A DNA stretch of 64,000 nucleotides, from NCBI RefSeq assembly GCF_000025545.1, contig NC_013889.1:613501-677500 (forward strand). Direction: 5' to 3'. The notes below the pieces were generated by a model. It was not told the DNA's origin. It saw only the letters and a list, made by a program, of their open reading frames with translations, and made no database searches. This DNA is from Thioalkalivibrio sp. K90mix. GTDB lineage: Bacteria > Pseudomonadota > Gammaproteobacteria > Ectothiorhodospirales > Ectothiorhodospiraceae. This document shows, in pieces, positions 31,954-48,923 of this stretch; positions within the stretch are counted from its first letter, which is position 1, and every line of letters starts with the position of its first letter. The position numbers and the translations under genes were made by a program.

Positions 31954-32795
31954 GCACGGCTCCGGTTGTGCATGCGGGCCGCCAGCCGGAAAGTACGGGT
32001 GCGGATCTCGTCGCGGTTCTCCAGCAGTGCTTCCGGGGGGGCCGCGCGAAACTGCTGTTCCGCGGCCTGCAGCCGCTCCAGTTCGCCGCGCAGGCGCGCC
32101 GTCCCGGTGGCCGGGTCTTCCTGACTGACGACCTCGCGGAAGGCGCGCGAAAGGATCACCCATTCGGACCCAAGGCGGACATGTTCGCCCAGGATGGATT
32201 CGGCCGGGACCTCGCCCTTGCCCACCGCGCCGACGCCCCCGAACCCGAACGCGACGCCCGCCTCGCGGCACAGGGCGGCCGGCGCCTCCAGCATGCCGCC
32301 GGCCAGCGGTTCGAACAGGAAATCGAGCCCGGATGCCAGGCTGAGATCATTCAGGCCGATATGAATCTGGTCCTGTGGCCCGAGCAGGGGCAGGTAGGAC
32401 GGCAGTCGGATCAGGGCCTGCGGGGTCTCGACCAGCAGGGTCACCGGCACCTGTCCGCCGACGGCGTCGAGAAAGTGCTGTACCTCGTCGATACGGGTGA
32501 ACATCGGCAGCATCAGCCGGTCGGCGCCGGCGTCGATCGCCTGACGGACCTCGGAGGGCGTCTGCGGAGCCGGCGGATTGATGCGCACCATCAGCTCTGC
32601 GCTCGTGAGCACGCTGGAGATGCGTCGGACATCGTCGAGCGTGTGCCGCGCCTTGTGGGTGTCCAGATGACCCTGGCGTTCGGCCTTTCCCCGGGTCTCC
32701 ATGTCGACGAAGATACGCGCGATTTCCGCTGCCTCGGCCTGCCGGGCGACGTCGGCGGAGGCCGTGATGAACATGTGTTTCAGGGTCGAAGTCAT
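31944..32795 (-). CDS. HpcH/HpaI-family aldolase / citrate-lyase-like protein
   Basis: A 283-residue TIM-barrel protein. The metal-site and substrate elements can be seen: an Arg-Ile-Asn strand (LMVRINPP, about 68-75), MLPMFTRIDEV, LLVETPQALIRLPS with a metal-ligand Glu (about 121), and IHIGLNDLSLASG with the second acidic ligand. Family members join or split 2-oxo acids by aldol chemistry. Coupled to the downstream 2-hydroxyacid dehydrogenase and the upstream sugar transferase by overlaps (4 and 10 bases), it must be expressed as part of the polysaccharide locus, where such a gene is unusual. Confidence 0.85.
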   Translation of the reverse strand: MTSTLKHMFITASADVARQAEAAEIARIFVDMETRGKAERQGHLDTHKARHTLDDVRRISSVLTSAELMVRINPPAPQTPSEVRQAIDAGADRLMLPMFTRIDEVQHFLDAVGGQVPVTLLVETPQALIRLPSYLPLLGPQDQIHIGLNDLSLASGLDFLFEPLAGGMLEAPAALCREAGVAFGFGGVGAVGKGEVPAESILGEHVRLGSEWVILSRAFREVVSQEDPATGTARLRGELERLQAAEQQFRAAPPEALLENRDEIRTRTFRLAARMHNRSRACA

Positions 32796-33442
32796 TCCAT
32801 GTCCCCTTGCTGTCGGTTACGCAGTGAATCGCGATAGGTACGCCAGTTGATCCCGGCCTCGCCGTAGACCCCCTGGCCGGTCAGGACGACGTAGACCGTC
32901 TTCAGAATCAGCCCCAGGTCGTACAGCAGGTTGTGCTGCGCGGCATATTCGGTGTCGGCCTCGAGCTGCTGGATCCAGCCCAGCGTGCGGCGACCACGGA
33001 CCTGGGCCAGTCCGGTCAGGCCGGGACGCACCGAAAACCGGGAGGCGTAGGAGGGGGGCACGACCTCTACCTGTTCCGGCAGGATCGGGCGGGGACCGAC
33101 CACGCTCATGTCGCCGCGCAGGATGTTCCACAGCTGCGGCAGCTCGTCGAGACTGGTCGCACGCAGCCAGCGACCCACGCGGGTAATGCGCGGGTCGACC
33201 CCGGTGCTGACCACCTGTTCCTGGTGCTGGTCGATCGCGTCCGGGTCGCGATCCACCATGGTGCGGAACTTCAGTACCCGGAACGGCTGGCCGTTGAAGC
33301 CAATGCGTCGCTGGCGGAAGAGGATCGACCCGGGGCTGTCGAGGCGAATCGCAATGGCGATCAGCAGCAGCAACGGGGCCAGCACGAGCAGCGCCGCCAT
33401 GCTGGACAGGATGTCGAACAGGCGTTTGAGGATGGCGTTCAT
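32792..33442 (-). CDS. Monotopic undecaprenyl-phosphate sugar phosphotransferase (bacterial sugar transferase)
   Basis: A 216-residue small-type phosphoglycosyl transferase. It has one re-entrant hydrophobic helix (about 12-33) after KRLFDI, then LFRQRRIGFNGQPFRVLKFRTM, the family signature, with the catalytic Asp-Glu pair in SLDELPQLWNILRGDMSVVGPRP (split here at residues about 100-125). It moves a sugar-1-phosphate to undecaprenyl phosphate at the cytoplasmic face and so starts a repeat unit. A second, unrelated initiating enzyme is at 29845-30861. Overlaps by four bases with both neighbours. Confidence 0.94.
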   Translation of the reverse strand: MNAILKRLFDILSSMAALLVLAPLLLLIAIAIRLDSPGSILFRQRRIGFNGQPFRVLKFRTMVDRDPDAIDQHQEQVVSTGVDPRITRVGRWLRATSLDELPQLWNILRGDMSVVGPRPILPEQVEVVPPSYASRFSVRPGLTGLAQVRGRRTLGWIQQLEADTEYAAQHNLLYDLGLILKTVYVVLTGQGVYGEAGINWRTYRDSLRNRQQGDME

Positions 33443-34653
33443 GCGAGCTCCATCGTGCGCAGAATGACGCGGTTGACCTGCCCCACCTCGTACTTCGCCT
33501 CCACCCGATCGCGCGAGGCCCTGGCCATGCGCGGCAGCAGTTCCGGGTGCTCGAGGAGCCGCTGCATGGCCTCGGCCAGTGGCGCGGAGGTCCGGGGCGG
33601 GACGAGGAGGCCGTTCTCGCCGTCGACGACGGTCTCGCGGCAGCCCGGGGCGTCTGTGGTGATGATCGGGCGGCCCACGCTCATCGCCTCCAGCACCGAA
33701 CGCGGGGTGCCTTCGCGGTAGGAGGGCAGGACGAATACGGAGGCCTTATGCAGCCAGGGCCGAACATCGGCCACGCCACCGACGAACTCGACAATGCCCT
33801 CGCGCTTCCAGGCCTCTACCTGCTCCGCCGAGATCGTGTGCGGCAGGTCCGGGTTATGGGGGCCGACCACCACGAAGCGGGCATTGGGGTGTTGCGCGTG
33901 AACCTGGCGCGCGGCCTCCACGAACTCGAGGATGCCCTTCTCGGTGAGCAGACGGCCGACAAACAGGAACAGCGGGTCGCCCTCGGGAAGGGGATGCTGG
34001 GCGAAGCGGTCCACGTCCACCCCGGAGCCGTTAATGCGAACGACCCGCTCGGTATCCGGCAGCACACCCCGATCGAGAAAATCCTGGAGGTCATCCGGAT
34101 TCTGGAAGAACACGCGATCGCAGCGGGCCAGGGCTTGGCGATACAGGCCGGAACTGATCGTGCGCAGGATGCGCGTGCGCCAGGACTCGGTGGTAAAGGC
34201 ATGCCCGAGACCGGTAATCATCGCGTATACCCGCGGGACCCCGGCCCAGCGGGCGGCCAGAGAACCGTACACCACGGGCTTCACGGTATAGCTGAACACG
34301 GCCTCCGGTCGCAGGCGCCGCATCAGCTGGGTCAGGGCGAAGGTCGTGCGCAGGTCTTCAATCGGGTTGACACCGGTACGGCCCAGGTCGAACGGGTAGA
34401 TCGGGATGCCCAGCTCCTCGACCTCGGGCAGGTAGTCCTTGCGCGGGACGGCGGCGGCCACCGTTTGGCCGCGGCGGCGGATCTCGCGGATCAGGTCACC
34501 GCGGTTGGCGATCAGCGACCGGGCATTGGCCGCCACGATCAGGAGATCGATCCCGCTGTGTTCCCGCGACTCGCTTTCCCGGTCGGCCCGTGCCGTGCTG
34601 GTGGCATCCCCACGCAGGGTGGTGGCCACCCTGCGGTGCTCGGTGTTCTGCAT
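33439..34653 (-). CDS. Glycosyltransferase family 4 protein
   Basis: A 404-residue GT-B retaining transferase. The N-terminal acceptor half has the GLGHAF motif around 170 as in capsule/O-antigen GT4 enzymes. The C-terminal donor half shows FVGRLLTEKGILEFV, FVVVGPH, VLPSYREGTPRSVLEAMSVGRPII (the E-x7-E region) and TDAPGCRE. ATG 34653 is preceded by CAGGAG; an ATG 21 bases upstream is less likely. The first 40 residues are charged and probably disordered. It transfers a sugar to a lipid-linked intermediate; donor unknown. Confidence 0.9.
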   Translation of the reverse strand: MQNTEHRRVATTLRGDATSTARADRESESREHSGIDLLIVAANARSLIANRGDLIREIRRRGQTVAAAVPRKDYLPEVEELGIPIYPFDLGRTGVNPIEDLRTTFALTQLMRRLRPEAVFSYTVKPVVYGSLAARWAGVPRVYAMITGLGHAFTTESWRTRILRTISSGLYRQALARCDRVFFQNPDDLQDFLDRGVLPDTERVVRINGSGVDVDRFAQHPLPEGDPLFLFVGRLLTEKGILEFVEAARQVHAQHPNARFVVVGPHNPDLPHTISAEQVEAWKREGIVEFVGGVADVRPWLHKASVFVLPSYREGTPRSVLEAMSVGRPIITTDAPGCRETVVDGENGLLVPPRTSAPLAEAMQRLLEHPELLPRMARASRDRVEAKYEVGQVNRVILRTMELA

Positions 34654-34770
34654 GTCTGTTGCTCCTGTTCCCAAGAGGTGCCGGGTGGTCTCCGCCTACG
34701 CTGGAGAGGCCTCTCGGAAGTCCTTGTGCATGGGTACAAAAGGTAAACAGGACAATGATTTATCGCCATG

Positions 34771-34836: not shown

Positions 34837-36126
34837 TTATAGACGCAGGTCACTCGCCTCGGGCGGGAGTACCGATTTCACGTCGAAGATCACCGCGCGT
34901 TCGCGCCCGAATTTCTGCAGGCCCTGGGCGCCGAGTTCGACGAACTCGTGGTGCGGAACCGCAAGGATGATGGCGTCGTACTGGCCCTGTTTCGGCGCCT
35001 CGGTCAGCAGGTCCAGGCCATACTCGTGACGGGCCTCGGCGGTATCCACCCAGGGGTCCCAGACATCGACTTCGGCGTTGTAGCCGTGCAGGTCATGGAT
35101 GATGTCCACCACGCGCGTATTGCGCAGATCCGGGCAGTTTTCCTTGAACGCGAGCCCCATCACCAGGACACGCGAGGCCACGACCGGGAACCCTTTGCGG
35201 ATCATCGACTTGATCGTGCGATCCGCGATGTAGCCGCCCATGCCGTCGTTGGTGCGGCGGCCGGCGAGGATCATCTCCGGGTGGTAGTTAGCGGCCTGTG
35301 CCTTGTGCGTCAGGTAGTACGGGTCGACGCCAATGCAGTGCCCGCCCACCAGGCCGGGTCGGAATGGCAGAAAGTTCCACTTGGTCCCGGCCGCGGCCAG
35401 CACGGCCTCGGTATCCAGGTCCAGGCGTTCGAACAGCATCGCGAGTTCGTTGATCAGGGCGATGTTCACGTCGCGCTGGGTGTTCTCGATCACCTTGGCC
35501 GCCTCGGCTACGCGAATACTGGCAGCCGGGTGGGTGCCGGCGCGGATGATGCGGGCATAGAGCGCGTTGACGAATTCTGCGACCTCGGGGGTGGAGCCGG
35601 AGGTGACCTTGACGATATCGGGAATGCGGTGTTCCTTGTCGCCGGGGTTCACCCGCTCGGGGCTGTAGCCGAGGAAAAAATCGCGGTTGAGCTCGAGGCC
35701 GGATTCCGTGGCCAGCACAGGGGCACAGTCTTCCTCGGTCGCGCCGGGGTAGACGGTGGACTCGTAGATCACCACGTCCCCTGGCTTCAGGGCGCGACCC
35801 ACCGTGCGGCTGGCCGCCAGCAGCGGGCCCAGGTCCGGCCGCCGGTGGGCATCGATCGGGGTGGGCACCGTCACGATGAACACGTTGCAGTCCTGCAGTC
35901 GCCCCGGATCCGCGGTCAGTTCCAGATGCTCGGCGGCGGCGAGTTCCTCGCGGGAGACCTCGCGTGTGCGGTCGTGTCCGCCGCGCAGTTCCTCGACGCG
36001 GCCCGTATCGATATCGAAGCCCAGCGTGGGAAGGACCCGTCCGAACTCGGCTGCCAGGGGCAGGCCGACATAACCCAGACCAATTATGGCCAGACGCGGG
36101 GCGTCCGGTGCCGCAAATTCCGCCAT
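34837..36126 (-). CDS. UDP-N-acetyl-hexosamine 6-dehydrogenase (TviB/WbpA family)
   Basis: A 429-residue nucleotide-sugar dehydrogenase that oxidises C6 of UDP-GlcNAc or UDP-GalNAc to the uronic acid with 2 NAD. It has an N-terminal NAD loop [16 protein letters not shown] (about 14-29), an [12 protein letters not shown] segment, and the catalytic Cys in [15 protein letters not shown]. The overall pattern (long N-terminal half, [12 protein letters not shown]) fits TviB/WbpA rather than UDP-glucose dehydrogenase. ATG 36126 follows CAGGAG; longer in-frame starts are not supported. It supplies an acidic sugar to the glycan. Confidence 0.93.
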
Positions 36127-36200: not shown

Positions 36201-37547
36201 TCAGGGCGCGGCACGCCGCGGTTGCGGCAGTTCCGCGCCGGAAGTCTCCGGTAGGTCCGTCGTGCTGTTCGGGGCTGTCGAGCGAGTGGCGCCGAGGCGT
36301 CGCAGTCGTTCCCAGCGCCACAGGCGGCGCCCGGCCAGGCCCGCCGCCAGGGCGATCAGGATCCCGAGGAACTTGGCGCGATGGCGGGCGGCGGTCCCGA
36401 AGTTGCTGGTGCCCCAGGCGAAGATGATCGCCAGGACGATGAACACTACGACCAGCAGCCGGAAGTCCGAGCGATGCCACCAGTGGCGGCGATACACCGC
36501 CAGCAGCAGGACCAGTGTCAGATAGAACAGACCCTCTGCCATGCCGATCAGGTGGACAGGCGAGCGCACCTCCCACAGCGGGGGACCGAACAGCAAATAG
36601 CCCACCCGGACCGGGGTCAGGGCTAGTGCCTGGAGGTCATTGGACGGGATCAGGAAGGACGGGTAGGCGGCCCCGCCGCGGGCGCTGCGCTCGGCCCGCT
36701 GGTCCAGCGTCTCGGTCTGTTCCATCACATCGCCCAACTGCCCGATCGACGAGAAGCGCATCTCGTCCATCACCACGAATCCAAGGACCCCGGCCGTGCC
36801 TAGCAGCATGCCGCCCAGCAGCAGGCCCGGGCGCAAATGCCCCAGATCCGAGGCCCGCAGGAATTCCTTGATCGACCAGCCGACCAGTACGACCGCGATG
36901 CCCGCGATCGCAAACACCGCCGCGCCATGCACGACCGCCGCACCCAGCAGCACTCCGACGGCGGCCACCAGGAAACCGGTGCGCTGACTCTGAACCCAGC
37001 GCACCAGCCAGAGCACGCCCAGCAGGAAGAAGGCCGTGAACCACACCTCGCGCAGTGGCACGGCCGCATTCACGATCAGGATCGGGAACAATGCGGCGAT
37101 CCAGGCCGCACGCACGGCGGCCTGGCGGTCCCAGAGCTGCTCGGCGATGCGCGCAATCAGATAGACCGTCAGCATGCCCAGGGCGATGTTCACGGCCTGG
37201 AAGGCCAGGGGGGCGCGGTCGGAACAGGCATAGATGTTGGCAATCAGCCAGCTGTGCAGGTACGAGCTGCCCATGCTGAAGTGGTCGCCGAGATTGCCGC
37301 AGCCGTTCTGGGCCCAGAACCAGGCCCGGCGCTCGAAGCTGATCGCATCGGCGCCACCCTGAGGGAGGGGAAACAGGAAGCGCTGCACCAGCGCCGCCCC
37401 GATGCGCGCCAGCAGGGCCGCCAGCAGGGGCCACAGATAGCCCTCGCGTCTGGCCCCGGTCCACAGTACGGCGACCAGCACCACCATCAGGAAGCTGGCC
37501 GACAGCAGTAGCTCCATGGTCGTGAACGGGATCGAGGTATAGCTCAT
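36201..37547 (-). CDS. Polytopic membrane protein of the polysaccharide locus (GT39-like or polymerase candidate)
   Basis: A 448-residue protein with 10 or more hydrophobic segments and a Pro/Thr-rich cytoplasmic tail after about 420. A first extracytoplasmic loop ([18 protein letters not shown], residues about 63-80) with conserved-looking Asp/Glu and aromatic residues, followed by [20 protein letters not shown] and an ALFPIL…PLREVWF segment, resembles dolichyl-mannosyltransferase-like (GT39/ArnT-type) membrane enzymes. In this locus it is the only candidate for a Wzy-like polymerase. Which role it has cannot be settled by eye. It overlaps the downstream GT4 gene region by four bases at its start. 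Confidence 0.75.
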
Positions 37548-38680
37548 GGCGAGACGGGCGCGGTATGGGCCATCGCATCCCGGAACAGGGTCTGGTAGCG
37601 CGCGGCCACGGCCTCGAGGGCGTAATGCGATTCCATGCGTGCACGGGCCTCGCCCCCCAGCGCGTGCAGGCGCTCACGGCCCTGGCCGATGGCCCGGACA
37701 ATGGCGTCGGCCAGATCCTGCGGCTCGGGGCTTGCGGCGACAAAGCCGGTGGACCCGACCACGCGGGCGGCATCGCCGATATCGGTGACCACGGCCGGTC
37801 TGCCGCAGGCCATGGCCTCGCCCACGACATTGGGGAAGCCCTCGCCCCAGCGCGAGGGCAGCACCAGCAGGTCCAGGCCCGGGTAGAGGGCCTCGGGTTC
37901 GGGGGTGGGCGGCAGCAGCGTGACATGCCGGTCCATCCCGTGTTCGCGGATGGCCTGGGCCAGCGGGTTGTCATCCGCGGACACCCCGGTGCCCACCATG
38001 ACGCAGTGCACGTCGACTCCACCCCGGACCAGGTGCGCCAGGGCGGCCACCAGTCCGGCATGGTTCTTCATGGGGTGGGCGCGTCCGACCATGCCCAGCA
38101 GCCAGGTGTCCGCCCCGATACCCAGTTGGGCGCGCAGCCCGGGGGTGGCGTCCGGCGCCGGATGGAAACGCGCGAGGTCAAAGCCGTTGGGCAGGACCAC
38201 GCGGCGATCCGCGGCGAATCCCAGCGCCTCGTGCTGCGCGGCGGCGGTGGCGCTGTTGTAGACGATGCGGGCCGGATACCGCGACAGCCAGGCGCCGGTG
38301 CGGATCACCCAGCGGGTCCCGCGTTTCTCGTGCGCCAGGTCATGCACCGAGTGGCGCACGTTCCAGAACACCGGGCCCTGATACCCGAGGCGTCGGGTCA
38401 GCGAGGCCGCCAGGTTGCCGTGGTACATCCAGCCCATCACGCCATCGGGCTGATAGGCGGCCAGCGCGCGGCGCAGGGCGGCGATCCATCCCGTGGAGAG
38501 CGGGTTGCGCAGTCGCCCGGTATAGACCGGGATACCCTGCGCCCGGATGTCGCCGGCCATCACCCCGGGTTCCTTGAGCGCGAACACGGCGCCGGCGTCC
38601 GGTGCCGCGCGCAGCAGGTTGCCCAGCTGGCGCTCCGCGCCGCCCTGGCCGAGCCCGTTGATCACGTGCAGGATCTTCAC
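37544..38680 (-). CDS. Glycosyltransferase family 4 protein
   Basis: A 378-residue GT-B transferase starting VKILHVINGLGQGGAERQL, the classical N-terminal motif of GT4 enzymes. The C-terminal donor domain has LLGMVGRAHPMKNHAGLV, CVMVGTG and a VLPSRWGEGFPNVVGEAMACG segment with the conserved E-x7-E. GTG 38680 was taken as start: it overlaps the upstream ligase stop (GTGA), follows AGGAG and gives the canonical N-terminus. Adds a sugar to the repeat unit; donor unknown. Confidence 0.9.
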   Translation of the reverse strand: MKILHVINGLGQGGAERQLGNLLRAAPDAGAVFALKEPGVMAGDIRAQGIPVYTGRLRNPLSTGWIAALRRALAAYQPDGVMGWMYHGNLAASLTRRLGYQGPVFWNVRHSVHDLAHEKRGTRWVIRTGAWLSRYPARIVYNSATAAAQHEALGFAADRRVVLPNGFDLARFHPAPDATPGLRAQLGIGADTWLLGMVGRAHPMKNHAGLVAALAHLVRGGVDVHCVMVGTGVSADDNPLAQAIREHGMDRHVTLLPPTPEPEALYPGLDLLVLPSRWGEGFPNVVGEAMACGRPAVVTDIGDAARVVGSTGFVAASPEPQDLADAIVRAIGQGRERLHALGGEARARMESHYALEAVAARYQTLFRDAMAHTAPVSP

Positions 38681-40014
38681 CGTCGGCTCTCCTGCAACTC
38701 GCTGATCACATGCAGGTGCTTGCCGCTGGGCGACGGCGGGATCGCGTTCACGCGATCGATATCCAGGCGTGTGCCCGCGCCGAGTTGTTCGCGGATCTCG
38801 GGCTCCAGGCGCGCCTGCAGACGCCGTTCTCGCTCGCCTTGCGGGGCACGATCGATGGGGATCAGGCGCAGGCGGATATGATCTTCCGCGTGCTGGACCC
38901 ACTGGTACTGTCCGATCCAGTCTTCCGGGTACAGCAACTGGCGCAGCCACCCGCCGAATACCACGGCACCGCTGGTGCCGCGGATATGGTCGGTCACGCG
39001 TCCCCATACCCCCTCCAGCAGCGGCCATTCCCGCCCGCAGTCGCAGGCCTCGCCGGACCAGCTGGCCAGGTCGCCGATCGCATAGCGCAGCAGGGGCATG
39101 CTGTAGTTCGTCAGCGAGGTGACCACGACCCGCCCGGGGGTGCCGGGTGGCGTCGGACGGCCGTCGTCGTCGAGGATCTCCAGGTACTGGGTCAGCGGGT
39201 TCACGTGCAGCCCGCGGTGGTGCTCGCATTCGCAGGCGATGTCACCCACCTCGCGCGAGCCGTAGCGGTTGAACACGGGGGCATCGAAGGCCTTCTCGAT
39301 GGTCTCGCGCATGTCGGGAAAGAGCGTTCCGGCCGAACTCAGCACACTGCCGATACCCGGCACACGGACTCCCCGGCGCAGGGCATGCCGGGCGAGTTCG
39401 TGGCCACTCTCCGCGTAGATCTGCAACTGACTGGGCGGCGCGGCGCGCAACTGCTCGAGGTGCGCATCCATCGTCTCCGGGTCCATGCGGTAGGCGTTCA
39501 GCAGGGTGCGATTCTTCAGCCGTTCGGCGAGGCGGCGGGTGCCCCGGGGTGCGGTGAGGTCGCGCGAAGCCGCCCACAGCACGGCCTTGGGCTGACCCGG
39601 GCGGTAGCCGGTCCAGCCGTCGAACAGGGCCTTGGTGGCGCGGCCCCAGCGGCGATAGGCGGTGTCCTGGTAGAACGTGGCCGGCTCGCCGGTGGATCCC
39701 CCCGAGGTGTTGCGCCGCAGCCCGGGTCGAGGTCGCTGTGCGCACAGGCGCTCGCCCTCGCGACGGATGGTGTCCTTGTCGAGGATGGGCAGCGACAGCA
39801 GGGTGGCCAGCGGATCGGCGGCGATGGTGTCCGCATCGGGCAGGATTTCGCGGTAGTACGGCACATCGTCGCGTGCGTGTACCAGCAGGCGCGCGAGCCG
39901 CTCGGCCTGCAGGCGCTGCAGGGCGGGCAGGGGGAGCCGCTCCGCCCGGCGCAGCGCGGCATATTCGCGCGGGCCGGAGAGCCAGGGGAGGAGGGCACCA
40001 AAGGCCAGGGACAT
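38677..40014 (-). CDS. CapK / phenylacetate-CoA-ligase-like adenylating enzyme
   Basis: A 445-residue AMP-forming ligase-fold protein of the CapK type found in capsule loci. The P-loop-like NTSGGSTGEPATFYQD (about 103-118) is intact, and a later FNRYGSREVGDIACECEHH segment (about 250-268) corresponds to the adenylate-binding Y-G-x-x-E motif. A Cys/His patch is present (CECEHH, CDCGREW). Such enzymes may activate a carboxylic acid that is then attached to the polysaccharide, but no CapK product is well established. The neighbours are an ATP-grasp and a PP-loop protein, also ATP-dependent ligating enzymes. Confidence 0.87.
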   Translation of the reverse strand: MSLAFGALLPWLSGPREYAALRRAERLPLPALQRLQAERLARLLVHARDDVPYYREILPDADTIAADPLATLLSLPILDKDTIRREGERLCAQRPRPGLRRNTSGGSTGEPATFYQDTAYRRWGRATKALFDGWTGYRPGQPKAVLWAASRDLTAPRGTRRLAERLKNRTLLNAYRMDPETMDAHLEQLRAAPPSQLQIYAESGHELARHALRRGVRVPGIGSVLSSAGTLFPDMRETIEKAFDAPVFNRYGSREVGDIACECEHHRGLHVNPLTQYLEILDDDGRPTPPGTPGRVVVTSLTNYSMPLLRYAIGDLASWSGEACDCGREWPLLEGVWGRVTDHIRGTSGAVVFGGWLRQLLYPEDWIGQYQWVQHAEDHIRLRLIPIDRAPQGERERRLQARLEPEIREQLGAGTRLDIDRVNAIPPSPSGKHLHVISELQESRR

Positions 40015-40026
40015 GACGCTTGTGCC

Positions 40027-40746
40027 TCAGGCGCTGGCGGTGCGCATCGAGCGCAGGCTGGAGCGCGCCCGACGGGCCAGCTCGAGCAGCGGCCCCAGAC
40101 GCGAATACTGGATCGTGCGTCGCGACTCGCGCGAGAAGCGGCAGGGCTGGCAGTGACCACAGGGCTGGCCGAGGATCGGCGAATGACAGAACCACGACTG
40201 TTCGAGCAGCGGCAGGAAGCCTTTGGCCTCGGCGTCGTACTTCATCGCCTCCTTCGTCACCGACAGCAACGGGAAGCGGTAGTACTGGAACAGCTCCCAG
40301 GCGAAGTCGTCCTCGCGGAAGCGGAAGTCCCCGTACTGCGGGTTGCGGAAAAGACGTTCCTGCAACTCGGTGCCGGCCTCGTGGCCGGTGAGCGACAGTT
40401 CCAGGTCGCGCAGGCCTTCCTGTTCGCACAGGCGGGCGAGCCAGTCGTACTGGGTACCCACATGCACCTCGCTCGCCAGGCGCTGGTAGAGCTCGGTGAT
40501 GTTCGGGTCCTCGAGGATGTCGCTGCGCAGATAGACACGAACCGGCGCCACGCGCCCGCGGGCCTCCGCCCGCGCCTCGATGCCCGCACGGATGTTGGCC
40601 ATGGCCCGCAGCTCGTACACATAGGATTTCCGGCGCGGGTCCAGCACGTAGATCGGCTGTACCTTGCGGTTGCGATAAAGCGCCAGGTCAAGCAGGCGGT
40701 AGCTGGAGTCCCAGCCACCGGTCCACAGCAGTTTGATGGTGTGCAT
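40027..40746 (-). CDS. QueC-like PP-loop ATPase in a polysaccharide locus
   Basis: A 239-residue N-type ATP pyrophosphatase. The PP-loop is LLWTGGWDSSYRLL (residues 6-19; consensus SGGxDS). Near residues 190-210 it keeps the zinc ligands of 7-cyano-7-deazaguanine synthase in the exact QueC spacing C-x8-C-x2-C-x2-C (CHSPILGQPCGHCQPC). In QueC the enzyme turns a carboxylate into a nitrile through adenylation. Here the rest of the sequence is divergent and no queuosine gene is near; it lies between CapK-like and ATP-grasp genes, suggesting amide or nitrile formation on a sugar acid. ATG 40746 follows AGGAG; a much longer in-frame start is rejected. Confidence 0.82.
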   Translation of the reverse strand: MHTIKLLWTGGWDSSYRLLDLALYRNRKVQPIYVLDPRRKSYVYELRAMANIRAGIEARAEARGRVAPVRVYLRSDILEDPNITELYQRLASEVHVGTQYDWLARLCEQEGLRDLELSLTGHEAGTELQERLFRNPQYGDFRFREDDFAWELFQYYRFPLLSVTKEAMKYDAEAKGFLPLLEQSWFCHSPILGQPCGHCQPCRFSRESRRTIQYSRLGPLLELARRARSSLRSMRTASA

Positions 40747-40772: not shown

Positions 40773-41858
40773 TCAGCGCGGATAGCCACGCGGGACCGAG
40801 GGCAGCAAGGGTCCGAAGCAGGACTCGTTGCGCGACCAGGCCACCTGCTCCGCATTCCACTCGAGGATGACGGGCTCGCCGCTGGCCTGAATGCAGACGT
40901 CCCAGCCAATGAAGCGCAGATAGGGGATGCGGCGATGGGCGTTCAGGCACAGCTCGCGTACCGCGCCGAAGTTGGGGATCCGGCAGTCCTTTACGTCCAC
41001 GCCGCTGTCGGGGTGGACCGAGCCGATGCTGACGCAGACCGGGTCGCGCAGATGGCCGTCCAGCCAGCCCTCGCCATCGACACCGACGAAGTAGCCACCG
41101 GTGGAGACGTTGTCGGTGCGCTGCCCCTCGCGGCCCAGGCGGAGGAAATGGTTCAGGATGCGCAGTTCCCCGGATTCCGGATCGAGGAAGGTCAGAACCC
41201 GCAGCGTATTGACCGAGCTGGCGTTGATCCGCGCGATATCCGGATGCTGCTCGATCAGGGGCTGCACGATGCAGTTTCCGGGGACCTTGCCGAGCTCTTC
41301 GGCCACCTGCTCGGTGGTCGTGAAAGTCACGCCGAGGCCCTGGCGTCCCTCGTCGGGCTTGATCACATAGGTCTTGCCGGCCTCGAGCCGGGAGAGGGCG
41401 GTTTCCAGCGGCTCCGGCGTCCCCTGGGCATCCAGGTACTGGCCACCCACGCGCACGAAGACCGGAGGCACGACGCTGTCCGGGAACAGGCGCGAATCCA
41501 TGGTCTTGAGTCCGCTCAGGCGGCGGATGTCCTGCCGGTTCCAGAGCGGGTTCAGGTGTTCGGTGTAGTAATCGTCGCCGATCCACCCCTCGACGAACTC
41601 GCGCCGCACCTCGGTGTAGGCGGCCAGCCATGGCCACCAGGACTCGCTCCCGTAGGTATCGGTCGCATAGCGCTTGATCCGCTGCAGGACCGGGCGCGTG
41701 ACCGCGGATTCGCCGTGGGCGCGGATGAGTTTCTCGCGCCACTGGATGGCAATCTTGCGCGACTTTTGCAGATGGCGCAGATGGACCGCGCGCGCAATGG
41801 TGCGGGCGATGCGGCCGCTGTTCTTGATCTGCAGCGGCTGGGATTGAACGTGCGTCAC
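40773..41858 (-). CDS. Sugar-transfer-associated ATP-grasp protein
   Basis: A 361-residue protein. The N-terminal helical part (about 1-140) is followed by an ATP-grasp fold: KTYVIKPDEGRQGLGV (glycine-rich, Lys binds ATP), CIVQPLIEQHPDIARI, RINASSVNTLRVLTF, and the metal-binding IGWDVCI…EPVILEWNAE at the end. The W-N-A-E close and S-x-N-T-L-R segment match the sugar-transfer-associated ATP-grasp family of capsule loci. It likely joins an amino acid or similar group to a carboxylate. GTG 41858 is preceded by GAGGAG at ideal spacing; ATG 41900 would add 14 residues. Confidence 0.85.
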   Translation of the reverse strand: MTHVQSQPLQIKNSGRIARTIARAVHLRHLQKSRKIAIQWREKLIRAHGESAVTRPVLQRIKRYATDTYGSESWWPWLAAYTEVRREFVEGWIGDDYYTEHLNPLWNRQDIRRLSGLKTMDSRLFPDSVVPPVFVRVGGQYLDAQGTPEPLETALSRLEAGKTYVIKPDEGRQGLGVTFTTTEQVAEELGKVPGNCIVQPLIEQHPDIARINASSVNTLRVLTFLDPESGELRILNHFLRLGREGQRTDNVSTGGYFVGVDGEGWLDGHLRDPVCVSIGSVHPDSGVDVKDCRIPNFGAVRELCLNAHRRIPYLRFIGWDVCIQASGEPVILEWNAEQVAWSRNESCFGPLLPSVPRGYPR

Positions 41859-41892
41859 GGGCAACTCCTCGTGTGGTGTCGACACGGCGGGT

Positions 41893-43728
41893 TCAGCCAT
41901 GGGTGCCGGAGGCCGCAGGGCCGGGGACGGACTGGACCTGGGGGGCATCGGCCTCGGTGTGAGTGACCAGCTCGTCGAAGCGGCCAACGGAGGCGAACGA
42001 TCCCCGTTCCAGGTGGGCGACCTGATCGCAGGCGCGCACGGTACTCAGGCGGTGCGCGATCAGGATGATGGTCTTGCTGCGTGACAGGGACTCGATCGCC
42101 TCCATCACGGCGCGCTCGGTTGCGGTGTCCAGGGCACTGGTGGCCTCGTCGAACACCAGGACGTCGGGGTCGTGGTAGAGGGCGCGGGCGATCCCGATGC
42201 GCTGGCGCTGGCCCCCGGACAGGCGCACACCACGCTCGCCCACCATCGTGGCGTACTGCTCCGGCATGTCCTGAACGATGAAGTCATGCACCTGTGCCAT
42301 GCGCGCGCAGCGCTCGACACGATCGTGGTCGATCTGCGCGGCGGGAATCCCCAGTGCGATGTTTTCGGCCACGGTCGAGTCGGTCAGGAAGATGTCCTGG
42401 GGGACGTAGCCCAGGGACTGTTGCCAGGCGCGCAGGTTGGCATCGGTGACCGGCTGGCCATCCACCAGTATGGCGCCCTCGGTCGGGCGCAACAGACCCA
42501 GCAGAACGTCGACCAGCGTGGTCTTGCCGGAGCCGGTGGTCCCGATGATCCCGACCGATGTGCCGACCGGGATCTCCAGGTTGATGGCCTGCAGCGCGGG
42601 ACGGTGTCCGCCTGGATAGGTGAACTCGATGCCCTCGAGCGCGATGATCTTCTGCGGGACCAGCGGCTGGGGGGCCTGGCGATGCAGTTCCGCCAGGGCC
42701 TCGCGTTCGCGCAGGTCCTCGGTCACGCTCTCCACGGCGGCGGCGCCGAAGCGAAGCTTCGCAAGGCCCGCGTAGATGTGCTGCGCGGCGGGCAGCAGGC
42801 GGTAGCCGGCAAAGGCGTACAGCCCGAGGATCGGCAGGATCTCGCCCAGCGCATCCGTACCGGTGCCGCCCTGGGTATGCAGCAGGATCAGGGTGAGCCC
42901 GATGATGCCGCCGAAGCCGATCGCCTCGATCAGAAATTTGGGTACCTGAGAGATGGTCTGGTTGGTCGCCTGGTGCCGGGCCTGGCGCTTGGAGGGGGCA
43001 TCGAAGCGCGACAGGTACGCATGCTCGCGACCCAGCAGCTTGATGTCCTTGATGCCGCCGAGGGCCTCGCCGGCGGCGGTGAAGCGTTCCTTGTTGGCGA
43101 GCGAGCGATCACGGCCGATGCTCCCGAGCAGGCCGCGCACGAACACGAAGATCGTGCCATATACCCCGCCAATTACGACCGCGACCCCCAGCGCGAGCCA
43201 CGGATCGACAAAGATCAGCAGTGCCACGATGGCGATGGTTACGACCAGGTAGGCGATCATCGTGATCCCGGGACGGAAGACATTCAGCACCAGCTGGTCG
43301 ACCTCGGACAGGATGCTCTTCGCCATGTCGCCGCTATGACGGTTCAGGAAGAACGCATACGGCTGGCGCAGGTAGGTCTCCAGCAGGCGCTTGCCGAGGC
43401 TGTGGCGGCGCATCTCGATGAAGCGGTTCATCGCGTAGTGCGTGAGCGTGCGAAATACCGCCGAGAACAGGATCAGCGCGAAGGCCGCCGCACCCAGGGC
43501 AAAGATGAACTGATCCACCGAGTTGAAGCCGAGCCCCGTGTAGAGCTGGTTCAGTACCGGGTTGGTGTTGACCAGCTCCGGGTTACCCAGCACGGACAGG
43601 AACGGCATGATCGATGCGACCCCGGCGGTCTCCAGTACCGCCATGATCATCATCATCCCCAGCACGAGCGCACCCCGGCGCTTCTCCGCCGGGGTGAGCA
43701 ACTGCAGCGTTTTGCGGTAGACCCCCAT
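41893..43728 (-). CDS. ABC transporter, fused permease-ATPase (MsbA/PglK-like flippase candidate)
   Basis: A 611-residue half-transporter: six membrane helices (about 20-330) and a C-terminal ATPase with GTTGSGKTTLVDVLLG (about 388), SLGYVPQDIFL, VRLSGGQRQRIGIARAL and DVLVFDEATSALD. It resembles exporter-type proteins such as PglK that flip lipid-linked oligosaccharides. No Wzx-type flippase is seen in the locus, so it is the best flippase candidate. The start ATG 43728 shares a base with the epimerase stop (TGATG). Extra acidic C-terminal tail of about 20 residues. Confidence 0.9.
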   Translation of the reverse strand: MGVYRKTLQLLTPAEKRRGALVLGMMMIMAVLETAGVASIMPFLSVLGNPELVNTNPVLNQLYTGLGFNSVDQFIFALGAAAFALILFSAVFRTLTHYAMNRFIEMRRHSLGKRLLETYLRQPYAFFLNRHSGDMAKSILSEVDQLVLNVFRPGITMIAYLVVTIAIVALLIFVDPWLALGVAVVIGGVYGTIFVFVRGLLGSIGRDRSLANKERFTAAGEALGGIKDIKLLGREHAYLSRFDAPSKRQARHQATNQTISQVPKFLIEAIGFGGIIGLTLILLHTQGGTGTDALGEILPILGLYAFAGYRLLPAAQHIYAGLAKLRFGAAAVESVTEDLREREALAELHRQAPQPLVPQKIIALEGIEFTYPGGHRPALQAINLEIPVGTSVGIIGTTGSGKTTLVDVLLGLLRPTEGAILVDGQPVTDANLRAWQQSLGYVPQDIFLTDSTVAENIALGIPAAQIDHDRVERCARMAQVHDFIVQDMPEQYATMVGERGVRLSGGQRQRIGIARALYHDPDVLVFDEATSALDTATERAVMEAIESLSRSKTIILIAHRLSTVRACDQVAHLERGSFASVGRFDELVTHTEADAPQVQSVPGPAASGTHG

Positions 43729-44753
43729 CAGGCGGCCGCCCGGTAATACCCCAGATACCAATCGACGAAGCGGGCGACGCCCTCCTCGACCGATGTGGTC
43801 GGTTCGTAGCCGGTGTCGGTGCGCAGCGCCTCGACGTCGGCGTAGGTGTCCGGCACATCCCCCGGCTGCAGCGGCAGCAGGTTCTTCTCCGCCTTGCAGC
43901 CCAGGCAGTCTTCCAGCACCTCGATGTAGTGCATCAACTCCACCGGACGATGGGCCCCGATGTTGTACAGCCGGTAGGGCGCTGCACTCGTCGCCGAGTC
44001 GGGCTCGGCGCCGGTCCAGTCGAGGTTGGGCTGGGCCGGACGGTCCAGCGTGCGAATCACGCCCTCGACGATGTCGTCGATGTAGGTGAAGTCGCGCCGA
44101 TGGTGGCCATAGTTGAAGACGTCGATCGGCTCGCCCGCCAGGATCTTCTTCGTGAACAGGAACAGCGCCATGTCCGGGCGGCCCCAGGGGCCGTAGACGG
44201 TAAAGAAGCGCAGGCCCGTCACCGGGAGCTGGTACAGGTGCGCATAGGTATGCGCCATCAGCTCGTTGGCCTTCTTGCTCGCGGCGTAGAGGGAGAGCGG
44301 ATGGTCGACGTTGTCGTGCACCGAGAACGGCATCGTGGTGTTGGCGCCGTAGACGGAGCTGGAGCTGGCGTAGACCAGGTGCTCCACACCAAAGTGCCGG
44401 CAGCCCTCCAGGATGTTGCCGAAGCCGACCAGGTTGGTGTCGACATAGGCCGCCGGGTTCTCCAGCGAGTAGCGCACCCCGGCCTGGGCCGCCAGGTTCA
44501 CCACCCGCTCCGGGCGATGCTCGCGAAACACCCGCTCCATCTCGGCGCGGTCGGCGATGTCTTCGTGTTCGAACACGAAGCGCTGGCGGGACGCCGGCAA
44601 GGCGCGGATGCGGTCCAGTCGGGCCCGCTTCAGGCTCGGGTCGTAGTAGTCGTTCATGTCGTCGACACCGATCACGGTGTCGCCACGCTCCAGCAGGCGC
44701 AGGGCCAGATGGGAGCCGATAAAACCTGCCGCGCCGGTGATCAAGACTTTCAT
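43728..44753 (-). CDS. NAD-dependent UDP-sugar epimerase (UDP-glucuronate 4-epimerase-like)
   Basis: A 341-residue extended SDR enzyme. The start [20 protein letters not shown] holds the NAD loop, [14 protein letters not shown] the substrate region and Y-A-A-S-K-K the catalytic Tyr-Lys pair. Residues [20 protein letters not shown] and [10 protein letters not shown] are typical of the group containing UDP-glucuronate 4-epimerases (CapI-like). It would interconvert UDP-uronic acids or related sugars for the glycan. First gene of the 13-gene minus-strand set, divergent from wza. Confidence 0.9.
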
Positions 44754-45143
44754 GTCGCCTCTTCCTTGTCGGATGGATGGGACTGACGTGTCCGGACGTT
44801 TCGCTTGCCCAGGGGCGTTGTGACGAGGGTCCGGGTCACTCGTTCATGGGGTGAACGCGATGGATTCAAGCATCGGCCGGAATGGCCCCGCAACGCCGGT
44901 TCCGGGAAACGTGAGGTCGATCCGTCGAAGCTGTGACTCGCCCCGTAAGTTTCGGATCGCGGCATTGCCCGCAGGGGGTTGGCTGCCGATATTTTGCGCC
45001 AGTTCGACGACGATCCGGCCTATTCGTGACATGGTCGGCCCGCTTGAGGCGGACCCGGTGGGGCTCGCCAGGATGAATCGCAAGGTGACGACGCGGCCGT
45101 GGGCGCCAGGGGCGCTGCGGCCATGCGCAAAAGAGGAAGATCC
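44754..45143. other. Divergent control region between the epimerase and wza genes
   Basis: These 390 bases hold no supported gene. They must contain the promoters of the minus-strand glycan genes and of wza-wzb-wzc. A less GC-rich patch is near 44935-45000 (around GATATTTTGCGCC). A sigma54-like match there has wrong GG-GC spacing and was rejected. No JUMPstart/ops element was found. GAGGAAG before 45144 is the wza ribosome site. Confidence 0.5.
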
Positions 45144-46274
45144 ATGAACGTGATCCCCCCCGTACGCTGGGTCCTGTTGCTGAGCCTGCTGGTGATATTG
45201 GGTGGGTGTGCCTGGGCCCCTGGCGGGCACATTGCCGAACGCACCTCCAGTGCCCCGGTCGAGGACCTGGTCGATATCGAGCCCATAACCTTTGGCCTGA
45301 TCCGGGCCCAGGAGACCCGCTCGGTACCGCCAGACTTGCGCCGTGTAAGCGACGAGATGGCACAGGACGTCGATGAATACGATTACCGCATCGGTCGCGG
45401 CGACGTGCTGGCGGTCATCGTGTACGAACACCCCGAGCTGACCATTCCGGCCGGCAGCGAGCGGTCCGCTGTGGAATCGGGGAATACCGTGCACCCCGAC
45501 GGGACCATCTTTTATCCCTATATCGGGCGCGTCGAAGTCGAGGGGTACACCGTGTCGCAGGTGCGTGACCGGATCGCGCGCGATCTCGCGACCTTCGTGA
45601 ACGAGCCCCAGGTCGAGGTGCGCGTGGCGGCCTTCAACTCGCAGAAGGTCCAGGTGACAGGCTCGGTACGCGAACCCGGCGTGCAGCCAGTGACCAATGT
45701 GCCGCTGACCGTGCTCGATGCGATCCACCACGCGGGCGGGCTGTCCGACGATGCCAACTGGCACGAGGTGATCCTGACACGGGAAGGCGAAGAGGTCGTG
45801 ATCTCGCTCTACGACATGTTGCGCTACGGCGACATGTCGCAGAACCGGCTCCTGCGCGATGGCGACGTGCTGCACGTCCCGGATACTGCCGGCCAGCAGA
45901 TCTACGTGATGGGCGAAGTGGGCGACCCGCAACGGCTGCCCCTGGGCCGCGGTCAGCTCACGCTGATGGATGCGCTCAGCCAGGCCGGAGGGTTTAACGA
46001 GACTCGGGCGGACGCCAGCGGCATCTTCGTGATCCGCCGTGCACCACCGGACAGCGACAAGCTCGCGACCGTCTACCAGCTGGATGCGCGCAATTCCGCA
46101 GCGCTGATGCTGGGGGCCGAGTTCGAGCTGGAGCCGCTGGACATCGTGTATGTGACGACGACGTCGCTGGGCCGCTGGAACCGCGTGATCAGTCAGCTGC
46201 TGCCCACGGTCAGCGCGGTTTACCAATCCTCCCGTACCACGCGCGACGTGCGCCGCCTGTCGGATGACTTCTAG
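45144..46274 (+). CDS. wza: Wza/GfcE-type polysaccharide export lipoprotein
   Basis: A 376-residue outer-membrane translocon protein. The signal peptide ends in the lipobox LGGC (Cys at about residue 23). A poly-export domain (RIGRGDVLAVIVYEHPELTI, about 78-170) and two SLBB-type beta-grasp repeats (QVTGSVREPGVQPV… and YVMGEVGDPQRLPL…) follow, then an amphipathic C-terminal stretch that could form the outer-membrane helix ring. Length matches E. coli Wza (379). ATG 45144 with GAGGAAG upstream starts the signal peptide. It is the first gene of wza-wzb-wzc. Confidence 0.94.
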   Translation: MNVIPPVRWVLLLSLLVILGGCAWAPGGHIAERTSSAPVEDLVDIEPITFGLIRAQETRSVPPDLRRVSDEMAQDVDEYDYRIGRGDVLAVIVYEHPELTIPAGSERSAVESGNTVHPDGTIFYPYIGRVEVEGYTVSQVRDRIARDLATFVNEPQVEVRVAAFNSQKVQVTGSVREPGVQPVTNVPLTVLDAIHHAGGLSDDANWHEVILTREGEEVVISLYDMLRYGDMSQNRLLRDGDVLHVPDTAGQQIYVMGEVGDPQRLPLGRGQLTLMDALSQAGGFNETRADASGIFVIRRAPPDSDKLATVYQLDARNSAALMLGAEFELEPLDIVYVTTTSLGRWNRVISQLLPTVSAVYQSSRTTRDVRRLSDDF

Positions 46275-46276
46275 CC

Positions 46277-46720
46277 ATGTTTAACCGGATTCTGGTCGTT
46301 TGTACCGGCAATATCTGCCGCAGTCCCGTGGGCGAGGCACTGCTGCGCGAGCGCCTGCCTGATCGCTCCGTGGAATCCGCGGGCCTTGGGGCTGTGGTCG
46401 GGGAGGGCGTCCACCCCGAGGCGCGGCGTCTGGCCGAGGCCGATGGTCTGGATGTCTCGGCACACAAGGCCCGGCAGATCGAGGCGGACTGGCTGCATCA
46501 CGCCGATCTGGTGCTGGTCATGAGCGAGGGCCAGCGCCAGGCCGTCGGCGGGCGCCACCCCGAGGTGCTCGGCAAGACGATGCGATTTGGCCACTGGCTG
46601 GAAGGTGGCCGTGGCCGAGACATCCCCGATCCCTATGGCAAGAGCCCCGAGGTCTTCGTGCAGGCTCATGCCCTACTTGTGGAGGCTGCCGATGCCTGGG
46701 CACGGCGGCTGAACCGATGA
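46277..46720 (+). CDS. wzb: Low-molecular-weight protein-tyrosine phosphatase (Wzb/Etp)
   Basis: A 147-residue cytoplasmic phosphatase that removes phosphate from the Wzc tyrosine tail. The P-loop VVCTGNICRSPVGEA (C-x5-R at residues 9-15) and the general-acid loop DIPDPYGKS are intact. Length equals E. coli Wzb. It starts two bases after the wza stop. Confidence 0.95.
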   Translation: MFNRILVVCTGNICRSPVGEALLRERLPDRSVESAGLGAVVGEGVHPEARRLAEADGLDVSAHKARQIEADWLHHADLVLVMSEGQRQAVGGRHPEVLGKTMRFGHWLEGGRGRDIPDPYGKSPEVFVQAHALLVEAADAWARRLNR

Positions 46721-46742
46721 TCTCCGACACAGGTAAATCCCG

Positions 46743-48923
46743 ATGACAAAGAACCATTCCCCCGGGGTGCCGGAAGGCGAACTGGATATTGGCCGACTGC
46801 TTGGCCAGTTGCTGGACCACAAGTGGCTGATCATTTTTATCACGGCGCTGTTTGCTATTGCGGGCGCGGTATACGCGACGCTGTCCACCCCGATCTACCG
46901 GGCGGATGCGCTGGTGCAGGTGGAGGACATGGGACGCTTCAGCAGCCCGTTGTCCAGTGTGCGCGAGATGCTGGGGCAGGAGCCGCGCGTCGAGGCCGAG
47001 CTGCAGATCCTGCGTTCACGCATGGTCCTCGGCCGCACGGTCGATCAGGAGGCGCTGGATCTGGTGGTACGCCCGCACCGTATGCCGGTGGTGGGCGATT
47101 ACCTCGTTCGCCGGGGCGTGGAGCGCCCCGCCTTTGCTCAGTCCAGTGTCTGGGCGGGCGAATCGATCAACGTGGGCGAGTTCCAGGTGGCCCGAGCCTA
47201 CGAGGGGCGCACCTTTACGCTGGAGGTTCTGGATGACGATCGTTATCGCCTGATCAACGGGGATCATGAACTGGGCGAGGGGCGTATTGGCGAGGACGTG
47301 GAGTTCTTTGAGGGTGATGTACGCCTGCGTGTGGCCGAAATGGATGCGGGGCCGGGGGCGCGTTTTGATATCCAGCGGCGCTCGCGCCTGGCGGCGATCA
47401 ACAGCTTGCGTGGTCAGTTCGAGGCGGGGCAGCAGGGCCGCGAGAGTGGCGTGTTCAGCCTGACCCTGACCGATCCGGACCCGCAGCAAGCCCAGCGCAT
47501 CCTGAACACCATCAGCCAGATCTATCTGACCCAGAACGTCCAGCGCAAGGCCGCCGAAGCCGAGAAGAGCCTCGAATTCCTGGAGGAGAAGGTGCCGGAT
47601 GTGCGCGATCAGCTGCAAACGGCCGAGGATGCGCTGAACGAGTACCGCACAGAGCGCGACAGCGTGGACCTCTCGCAGGAGACCCGTGCCGTGCTGGACC
47701 GCCTGGTCAACCTGGAACGTCAGCTCAACGAGCTGGAGTTCGAGGAGGCCGAGATCTCCCGGCGGTACACGCCCAGCCATCCGACCTATGCGGCCCTGAT
47801 CGACAAGCGCCAGAAGCTGCAGGAGGAGCGCAACCGGCTGAACCAGGAGGTCAGCGCGCTGCCGGAGACCCAGCAGCAGATCCTGCGTCTCAACCGGGAT
47901 GTGGAGGTCAACCAGGACATCTACGTGCAGCTGCTCAATCGCATGCAGGAGATGGATATTGCCCGCGCCAGTACGGTGGGCAACGTCCGTATCCTGGACG
48001 ATGCCCAGGCGGGGCTGTCCCCGGTCGAACCGCAGCGCAACATGATCGTGATGCTGTCCACGGTATTTGGCGGTGGCCTGGCGATTGCGCTGGTGCTGGT
48101 GCGCGGGATGTTCAACCGCGGGGTGGAATCACAGGAGGAGATCGAGGGGATCGACCTCCCGGTGTATGCCAGCGTGCCGCGTTCCAGGGCGCAGGAGAAT
48201 CTGCTGCGCCGGGTGAAACGGCGCCACCAGTCGCGGGGGCATGACGTTCCAGGGGATGTACTGGCCTCGATCGACCCGGCCGACGACGCCATCGAGGCCC
48301 TGCGTGGCCTGCGCAGCAGCCTGCATTTCGCGATGCTGGAGGCCGAGGACAACCGGCTGGTGATTACCGGTCCGAGCCCGGATGTGGGCAAGAGTTTTGT
48401 TTCGGTTAACCTGGCGACCGTTTGTGCGCAGGCGGGACAGCGCGTGCTGATCATTGACGCCGACCTGCGCAAGGGGCATGTCCACCACGCCTTCGGTCAG
48501 CGCAGCGACGGGGGACTCTCGGAGTTTCTGGCGGGCCAGGAATCCCTGGAAGGGGTGCTGCGCCGCACGGATATCCAGGGGCTGGACTACATCGCCCGTG
48601 GCAGCGCGCCGCCGAACCCGTCGGAGTTGCTGATGAGCGACCGTTTCAGCCGCATGCTGGAGCAGCTCAGCCGCGACTACGATCTGGTGCTGATCGACAC
48701 GCCGCCGATCCTGGCGGTGACCGATGCCGCCGTGGTCGCACGCCAGTGCTCGACCACCTTGATGGTGGTGCGCTTCCAGCTGAACCCGCTGCGCGAGATC
48801 GAGTCGGCACGGCGCCGTCTCGATGCGGCGGGAGTCGACGTGCGTGGCTGTATCCTGAACTCGATCGAGTACAAGGCCTCGACCAGCTACGGCTACGGTT
48901 ATTATCACTACTCCTACAAGTAG
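46743..48923 (+). CDS. wzc: Wzc/Etk-type polysaccharide co-polymerase and tyrosine autokinase
   Basis: A 726-residue inner-membrane protein: a Wzz-type N-terminal helix (about 30-50), a long periplasmic region with coiled coils (about 270-400), a second helix near 435 and a cytoplasmic BY-kinase domain. Walker A is GPSPDVGKSF (about 542), A' VLIIDADLRKG, B DLVLIDTPP. It ends in a tyrosine cluster (SYGYGYYHYSYK) that is phosphorylated in turn and controls chain length and export. All parts are on one chain, as in proteobacteria. A strong terminator follows. Confidence 0.96.
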   Translation: MTKNHSPGVPEGELDIGRLLGQLLDHKWLIIFITALFAIAGAVYATLSTPIYRADALVQVEDMGRFSSPLSSVREMLGQEPRVEAELQILRSRMVLGRTVDQEALDLVVRPHRMPVVGDYLVRRGVERPAFAQSSVWAGESINVGEFQVARAYEGRTFTLEVLDDDRYRLINGDHELGEGRIGEDVEFFEGDVRLRVAEMDAGPGARFDIQRRSRLAAINSLRGQFEAGQQGRESGVFSLTLTDPDPQQAQRILNTISQIYLTQNVQRKAAEAEKSLEFLEEKVPDVRDQLQTAEDALNEYRTERDSVDLSQETRAVLDRLVNLERQLNELEFEEAEISRRYTPSHPTYAALIDKRQKLQEERNRLNQEVSALPETQQQILRLNRDVEVNQDIYVQLLNRMQEMDIARASTVGNVRILDDAQAGLSPVEPQRNMIVMLSTVFGGGLAIALVLVRGMFNRGVESQEEIEGIDLPVYASVPRSRAQENLLRRVKRRHQSRGHDVPGDVLASIDPADDAIEALRGLRSSLHFAMLEAEDNRLVITGPSPDVGKSFVSVNLATVCAQAGQRVLIIDADLRKGHVHHAFGQRSDGGLSEFLAGQESLEGVLRRTDIQGLDYIARGSAPPNPSELLMSDRFSRMLEQLSRDYDLVLIDTPPILAVTDAAVVARQCSTTLMVVRFQLNPLREIESARRRLDAAGVDVRGCILNSIEYKASTSYGYGYYHYSYK

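Follow-up and report, generated by a model that had tools for sequence, protein, structure and literature searches.

A divergent QueC-like PP-loop protein in a polysaccharide locus of Thioalkalivibrio and its bacterial and viral relatives

The PP-loop protein QueC (7-cyano-7-deazaguanine synthase, PF06508/TIGR00364) is the namesake of a fold whose use has already been shown by Cap9 and QatC to reach beyond modified-base synthesis. According to the sections of the PF06508 survey drawn on here (PMC13329287), which describe the main clusters of that family, QueC amidates a carboxylate with ammonia, carries YxQxHxxE, VPxRN and YPDC as its substrate and ATP motifs, and has four cysteines spaced C-x8-C-x2-C-x2-C. 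The same sections describe Cap9, of type IV CBASS, as a QueC-like ligase that attaches CDG to the N-terminus of a protein. QatC, of the Qat defence system, indicates that the fold can lose recognition of CDG and yet keep an essential ATP site, as laid out in the part of PMC12424860 used here. Another PP-loop enzyme, the N-acetyl sugar amidotransferase WbpG/WbuX (TIGR03573), belongs to surface-polysaccharide loci, and a phage model of 418 positions, phrog_1550, is called 'QueC-like' by annotation, its QueC-like domain starting at about position 150. Here we describe a QueC-like gene from Thioalkalivibrio sp. K90mix that sits among polysaccharide genes, and compare it with these systems.

A QueC-like gene among polysaccharide genes

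The window is the whole 64,000-nucleotide stretch of DNA that was analysed, and positions are given in its coordinates unless a locus or contig is named. The QueC-like gene runs on the minus strand from an ATG at 40746 to a stop at 40027 and encodes 239 amino acids; the plus-strand reading of 40027..40746 is not the protein. An earlier note on this DNA had given the coordinates 40027-40746 correctly, leaving the strand unstated. An AGGAG lies 6 bases 5' of the ATG. The ATPgrasp_ST gene upstream stops 26 nt before this ATG; downstream, 12 nt separate the QueC-like gene from a PaaK-like ligase gene. The locus contains the following features:

32792..33442, minus strand: undecaprenyl-phosphate sugar-phosphate transferase (PF02397 216.1 bits, over cut-off)
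33439..34674, minus strand: GT4 glycosyltransferase (PF00534 over cut-off)
34837..36120, minus strand: TviB-like UDP-HexNAc 6-dehydrogenase (NF011729 580.2 bits, cut-off 592; TIGR03026 over cut-off; start estimated)
36201..37547, minus strand: membrane protein, possibly a polymerase (PMT_2 25.5 bits, just under the cut-off of 26.1)
37544..38689, minus strand: GT4 glycosyltransferase (PF00534 and PF13692 over cut-off; start estimated)
38677..40014, minus strand: PaaK-like adenylate-forming ligase (best NCBIfam model NF045666 at 132.6 bits, below its cut-off of 300; PF00501 below cut-off)
40027..40746, minus strand: QueC-like PP-loop protein, 239 aa (TGGWDS P-loop, Cys4 motif)
40773..41987, minus strand: ATPgrasp_ST, sugar-transfer associated ATP-grasp (PF14397 132.2 bits, cut-off 31.4; the true start may fall inside the ORF)
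41893..43761, minus strand: ABC transporter, PglK/MsbA-like (PF00005 and PF00664 over cut-off; best NCBIfam model below cut-off)
43728..44753, minus strand: nucleotide-sugar epimerase/dehydratase (PF01370 over cut-off)
45099-48923: Wza/Wzb/Wzc-type genes, recognised by eye only

The order ABC transporter, ATPgrasp_ST, QueC-like protein, PaaK-like ligase, GT4, membrane protein, TviB-like dehydrogenase, GT4, transferase was kept in all five further orthologous loci (L009-L012 and L037). The nearest named loci, four from Thioalkalivibrio, showed 89-99% identity to the QueC-like gene, and dN/dS values of 0.04, 0.04, 0.08 and 0.11 against four orthologues indicated that the gene is under purifying selection. 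A PDB sequence search with the neighbouring ATPgrasp_ST protein gave no match at the limits used. In the same polysaccharide locus, at 30985-32795 on the minus strand, a 2-hydroxyacid dehydrogenase (PF02826 over cut-off) adjoins an HpcH/HpaI-type aldolase (below cut-off); speculatively, these two could yield a hydroxy acid for sugar N-acylation.

As the earlier note had described, this is a sugar locus, and the window genes that we scanned included no recognisable queuosine gene; the QueC-like gene is linked to polysaccharide genes and not to queD or queE. A search for the true queC, which the note had proposed, located it beside queE at C1:599.3-600.7 kb, 13 kb outside the window (C1:613.5-677.5 kb), with queE (TIGR04349, 340.8 bits, cut-off 300) followed directly by queC (TIGR00364, 197.9 bits, cut-off 150.3). 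The genome also holds two QueD-family genes. The window gene is therefore not the sole QueC of a genome with the full queuosine pathway, and the idea that a QueC-fold paralogue was recruited from queuosine synthesis to a polysaccharide locus is upheld. A third QueC-fold gene of this genome lies outside the window (G000:C1:2544189-2544758; L002, L029); its P-loop is SGGIES, it resembles the 'cluster 4' type of PF06508 by motif (YGQ, CxxC tail), and it clusters with seven genes of the class that resemble it.

Homology, motifs and predicted fold

Searched on its own, the window protein lies at the edge of detection: PF06508 matched it at E 0.0082 and 16.1 bits, under the curated cut-off of 22 bits, an NCBIfam scan gave no QueC (TIGR00364) match, and a PDB sequence search returned two chance-level rows only. 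Several of its viral relatives exceed the PF06508 cut-off. A PDB search with a 7-row family profile retrieved QueC 3bl5 at E 0.051, and profile-profile alignment with hhalign of 35 family rows against 21 QueC rows reached E 1.8e-8 across 193 columns. By these alignments, homology to QueC spans most of the protein; the match is marginal by the single sequence and firm by the family profile.

The P-loop reads TGGWDS where QueC has SGGxDS, with the first Ser replaced by Thr in the same loop, so that the PP-loop is retained, as had been noted, in an altered form. The cysteine motif is CHSPILGQPCGHCQPC, that is C-x8-C-x2-C-x2-C; the protein has one other Cys and no more, and the four-cysteine motif is present in 34 of 35 family rows. 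Its spacing had been called exactly that of the QueC zinc site, which holds for the published motif but not for our sample, where the first spacing is C-x9 in 21 of 21 QueC proteins. None of YxQxHxxE, PxRN (VPxRN) and YPDC occurs in any of the 35 family rows, whereas all three are present in all 21 QueC rows (YxQxHxxE was part of the pattern used to extract these rows, and no locus failed it). At the family's equivalent of the QueC PxRN, GxQY is often found (all 16 bacterial rows, of which two are orthologues, and 5 of 19 viral rows). In a tree of 35 family, 12 QueC and 8 further QueC-like rows, which has long branches and an unsure inner order, the family stood alone on one side of a 100/100 branch; the phylogeny called for by the earlier note thus sets it apart from QueC. 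Of 369 genomes of the class, 3 were matched by the 7-row profile at E 1e-8, as were 4 of 398 in the phylum; our own genome is in both counts and one other genome is shared. A PF06508 gene at E 1e-15 was present in 72 of 94 genomes of the class.

An AlphaFold2 model of the window protein built from 25 rows reached a pLDDT of 81.6 and a pTM of 0.77. Its best fold match in VIA was Cap9 (Z 13.3, 163 residues aligned, rmsd 3.0), ahead of QueC 3bl5 (Z 10.6), YcfA (Z 10.5), QatC (Z 9.6) and ArtA (Z 8.2), in a list from which a missing family is no evidence of absence. Foldseek ranked the PDB differently, with YcfA at the top (E 3.2e-4) and neither QueC nor Cap9 among the best 50 rows. Sequence and model together place the protein in the QueC-like branch of the PP-loop ATPase superfamily, with homology to QueC over the domain. 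The profile E value of 1.8e-8, the four cysteines in 34 of 35 rows, the QueC/Cap9-like fold and the dN/dS of 0.04-0.11 place the likeness to QueC beyond chance.

The window protein shares full-domain homology, fold (Z 10.6), P-loop type and Cys4 motif with QueC, but differs from it by TGGWDS for SGGxDS, the missing YxQxHxxE, PxRN and YPDC, its separate clade and its polysaccharide locus. With Cap9 it shares the closest VIA fold, a minimal-size QueC-like domain and the Cys4 motif; we nevertheless rejected a Cap9 identity, as the 7-deazaguanine motifs reported for Cap9 (RN, YxDC; PMC13329287, sections as above) are missing and no CD-NTase was found among the scanned neighbours. QatC has the QueC fold and has likewise lost the 7-deazaguanine Tyr/Asp pair (PMC12424860, part as above), but carries N- and C-terminal extensions, a C-x19-type cysteine spacing and qatABD neighbours. 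WbpG/WbuX was rejected as an identity as well: TIGR03573 gave no match to the window protein at E 1 and none in its genome at E 1e-30, the motif CxxC(x)6CxC listed in the survey sections (PMC13329287) is absent, and the profile-profile alignment covers 13 P-loop columns only. phrog_1550, in turn, matched the window protein at E 6.2e-9, and 6 of 6 viral relatives scanned matched it too.

ATP-grasp neighbours and relatives beyond the genus

Within the genus, 11 of 30 genomes carry a total of 16 family genes, six at 90-100% identity (the window gene included) and ten at 32-40%, with two per locus in G007, G025 and G027. PF14397, the ATP-grasp family of the neighbouring gene, is present in 24 of the 30 genomes. 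In every one of these a single high-scoring copy resembles a housekeeping gene, and some genomes carry extra copies as well. An extra copy lies less than 6 kb from 10 of the 16 family genes. Counting the two genes of G025, which flank a PGA_cap gene and both lie within 2.3 kb of a RimK-like gene (E 1.8e-9), 12 of 16 have an ATP-grasp gene within 6 kb. For the other four, the PF14397 search found no intact ATP-grasp gene within that distance; further ATP-grasp types were sought in G025, while the other four gapped loci were covered by PF14397 alone. The family gene on G013:C15 lies 9.2 kb from a PF14397 copy carrying stops. The 16 genes represent few lineages, neighbour counts rest mostly on one genus, and because polysaccharide loci are a preferred site of ATP-grasp genes and family genes alike, their association is confounded. 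The proximity in 12 of 16 cases supports a partnership and does not prove one.

A PGA_cap (CapA-like) gene (L031:10641-11759, plus strand, E 8.7e-59) lies between the two QueC-like genes of one locus, and ORFs with a similar start occupy a like place in L032 and perhaps L030, as judged by eye. Very divergent asparagine-synthase-like proteins are encoded on the minus strand at L030:6433-8175 and L031:6344-8056 (Asn_synthase E 0.003 and 0.0006, below cut-off), in loci that each have two QueC-like genes.

Outside the genus, the closest relative is L046 (37.5% identity over 224 aa; tree support 100/96), which is found in a polysaccharide-type locus, 200 nt from a GNAT gene. Also present there are two ATP-grasp-like genes and a PgaB-like deacetylase, all three under their cut-offs, as well as an amidotransferase of the asparagine-synthase family that clears its cut-off. 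Other bacterial relatives, namely L044, which adjoins NfeD, L045, and L035/L036, with a GGDEF gene in L036, do not sit in recognisable sugar loci, as judged partly by eye.

In viral contigs, three family alignments detected 9, 5 and 29 loci, in overlapping sets that include near-copies; the window protein alone gave no match there at the limits used. Likewise, tblastn found no match at the limits used in plasmids (window protein and the L030 and L047 relatives) or in named phages (L047, L049, L069 and L087 relatives). Among viral structure predictions QueC folds were common, the best being a 'queuosine biosynthesis protein' of Iridovirus LCIVAC01 (E 1.5e-9).

Several viral relatives join the QueC-like domain to other parts. 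In L053, an ATP-grasp part precedes it (ATP-grasp_3 23.6 bits, cut-off 23.2), for which a PDB search gave no ATP-grasp match. An ATP-grasp-like part also stands ahead of the domain in L049 (RimK 17.9 bits against a cut-off of 21, E 0.0024), with weak matches to RimK structures (E 0.035 and 0.04), and a single-sequence model of this part had too low a quality (pLDDT 45) to be informative; this gene adjoins a terminase-like gene (just below cut-off) and a sugar dehydrogenase with 26.7% identity to TviB. A GNAT domain precedes the QueC-like domain in L069 (46.1 bits, cut-off 20.7), while its relative L068 gave no GNAT match, and a GT2-like part follows it in L051 (21.6 bits, cut-off 23.3). L064 encodes an 844-aa protein whose parts beyond the QueC-like domain matched no model.

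Finally, the QueC-like genes of L047 and L048 stand alone close to virion or lysis genes, and the scan of their surroundings showed no sugar locus. Here the QueC-like gene (L047:4983-5702 and L048:4995-5735, plus strand) comes directly after a large gene with a Laminin_G_3 (lectin-like) domain or with zinc-carboxypeptidase and carbohydrate-binding-like domains, an arrangement that could hint at action on, or together with, a receptor-binding protein. In 14 viral loci (L068-L081) the GNAT-QueC-like ORF is preceded by an ORF with the motif FDW..EINTN; the fifteenth locus of the group, L082, has no upstream sequence. We considered the FDW..EINTN ORF as an ATP-grasp tail; as Pfam gave nothing meaningful and its profile missed the fused proteins, it was not counted as ATP-grasp.

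A candidate glycan amide ligase and its alternatives

With middling confidence, we propose that the window protein is a divergent QueC-fold PP-loop ligase of Cys4 (zinc) type that forms amides on a glycan precursor. Its cysteines would bind zinc, and it would use ATP to adenylate a carboxylate on a surface-polysaccharide building block, which would then be passed to ammonia or an amine to give the amide. The neighbouring ATP-grasp protein and PaaK-like ligase would act in the same pathway. In the window locus, the likeliest carboxylate would be that of the HexNAc uronic acid produced by the TviB-like dehydrogenase, whose presence makes a UDP-uronic acid a possible substrate. As a uronic-acid dehydrogenase is otherwise found near just two family loci (L034 and L049), we do not extend this idea to the whole family. 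O-antigens are known to contain uronamides such as GalNAcAN, and an amide-bearing sugar would therefore be less unusual than the earlier note had thought. Of the two outcomes named there, carboxylate activation followed by amide formation would be the most economical chemistry. A nitrile product, which we also weighed in view of ArtA in the VIA list (Z 8.2; sections of PMC13060819 drawn on here), is favoured by nothing in the sequence: no family row of the 35 retains the QueC motifs of the 7-deazaguanine pocket, and there is no pointer to a second dehydration step.

A glycan amide ligase is consistent with homology and fold, with the Cys4 motif in 34 and the QueC motifs in none of 35 rows, with the gene run kept in five of five loci, and with ATP-grasp genes near 12 of 16 family genes. 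The polysaccharide locus of L046 with its GNAT gene, the viral joins in L053, L049, L069 and L051, and the amide precedents of QueC and Cap9 point the same way. Against a strictly glycan role, the strongest evidence comes from the orphans outside sugar loci (L035/L036, L044, L045 and the viral L047/L048); the four genes without ATP-grasp nearby, the confounded neighbourhood, the few lineages, the Foldseek order and the scarcity of the dehydrogenase also count against it.

These orphans, and the relatives in viral contigs, would suit a protein-modifying enzyme, one that adenylates a small acid and joins it to a protein amine, as described for Cap9 and presumed for QatC, and that settled in a sugar locus by chance. 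Cap9 as the best VIA match (Z 13.3) and the GNAT join in L069 would fit as well. We consider this unlikely, given the tight run with glycan genes in five of five orthologous loci, the absence of Cap9's 7-deazaguanine motifs, and neighbours among which the scan found no recurring partner gene.

Alternatively, the enzyme could activate an amide or another carbonyl instead of a carboxylate, yielding an amidine, thioamide or nitrile on a sugar or acyl group in the manner of WbpG, YcfA or ArtA. No glutaminase or sulfur-donor gene was found among the neighbours scanned, the WbpG/WbuX model was unmatched, and the alignment to it is limited to the 13 P-loop columns; we thus regard carbonyl activation as improbable, although YcfA leads the Foldseek ranking (E 3.2e-4) and scores Z 10.5 in VIA, ArtA appears at Z 8.2, HexNAc sugars offer an acetamido group, and the earlier note had suggested a nitrile. 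That the window protein is a second canonical QueC making preQ0, as PF06508 homology and the cysteine motif might suggest, is scarcely credible and was rejected, with 16.1 bits against a Pfam cut-off of 22, no TIGR00364 match, YxQxHxxE, PxRN and YPDC in 0 of 35 rows, a separate clade at 100/100 and the true QueC beside QueE elsewhere in the genome.

Extending the glycan amide ligase to its relatives, we suggest tentatively, and with some doubt, that they form a new family of QueC-fold ligases acting in tandem with ATP-grasp ligases, as bacterial neighbours or phage fusions, and placing amide-linked groups on surface glycans, with substrates other than 7-deazaguanines. The family was not found among the PF06508 clusters described in the sections of PMC13329287 drawn on here. 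With its score under the Pfam threshold, the window protein would itself fall outside PF06508 as surveyed. The literature titles and abstracts listed, and the portions used of PMC13329287, PMC12424860, PMC13060819 and PMC7824862, contained no description of the branch, its ATP-grasp neighbours or the viral joins. Within these sources, the fold is known, and the branch with its neighbours and joins was not found described. The findings call for caution with the automatic label 'queuosine synthesis' for such QueC-like genes. If the proposal is true, this would be a third, glycan-linked use of the QueC fold, with ATP-grasp partners and viral copies, opening a testable route to new surface-sugar chemistry.
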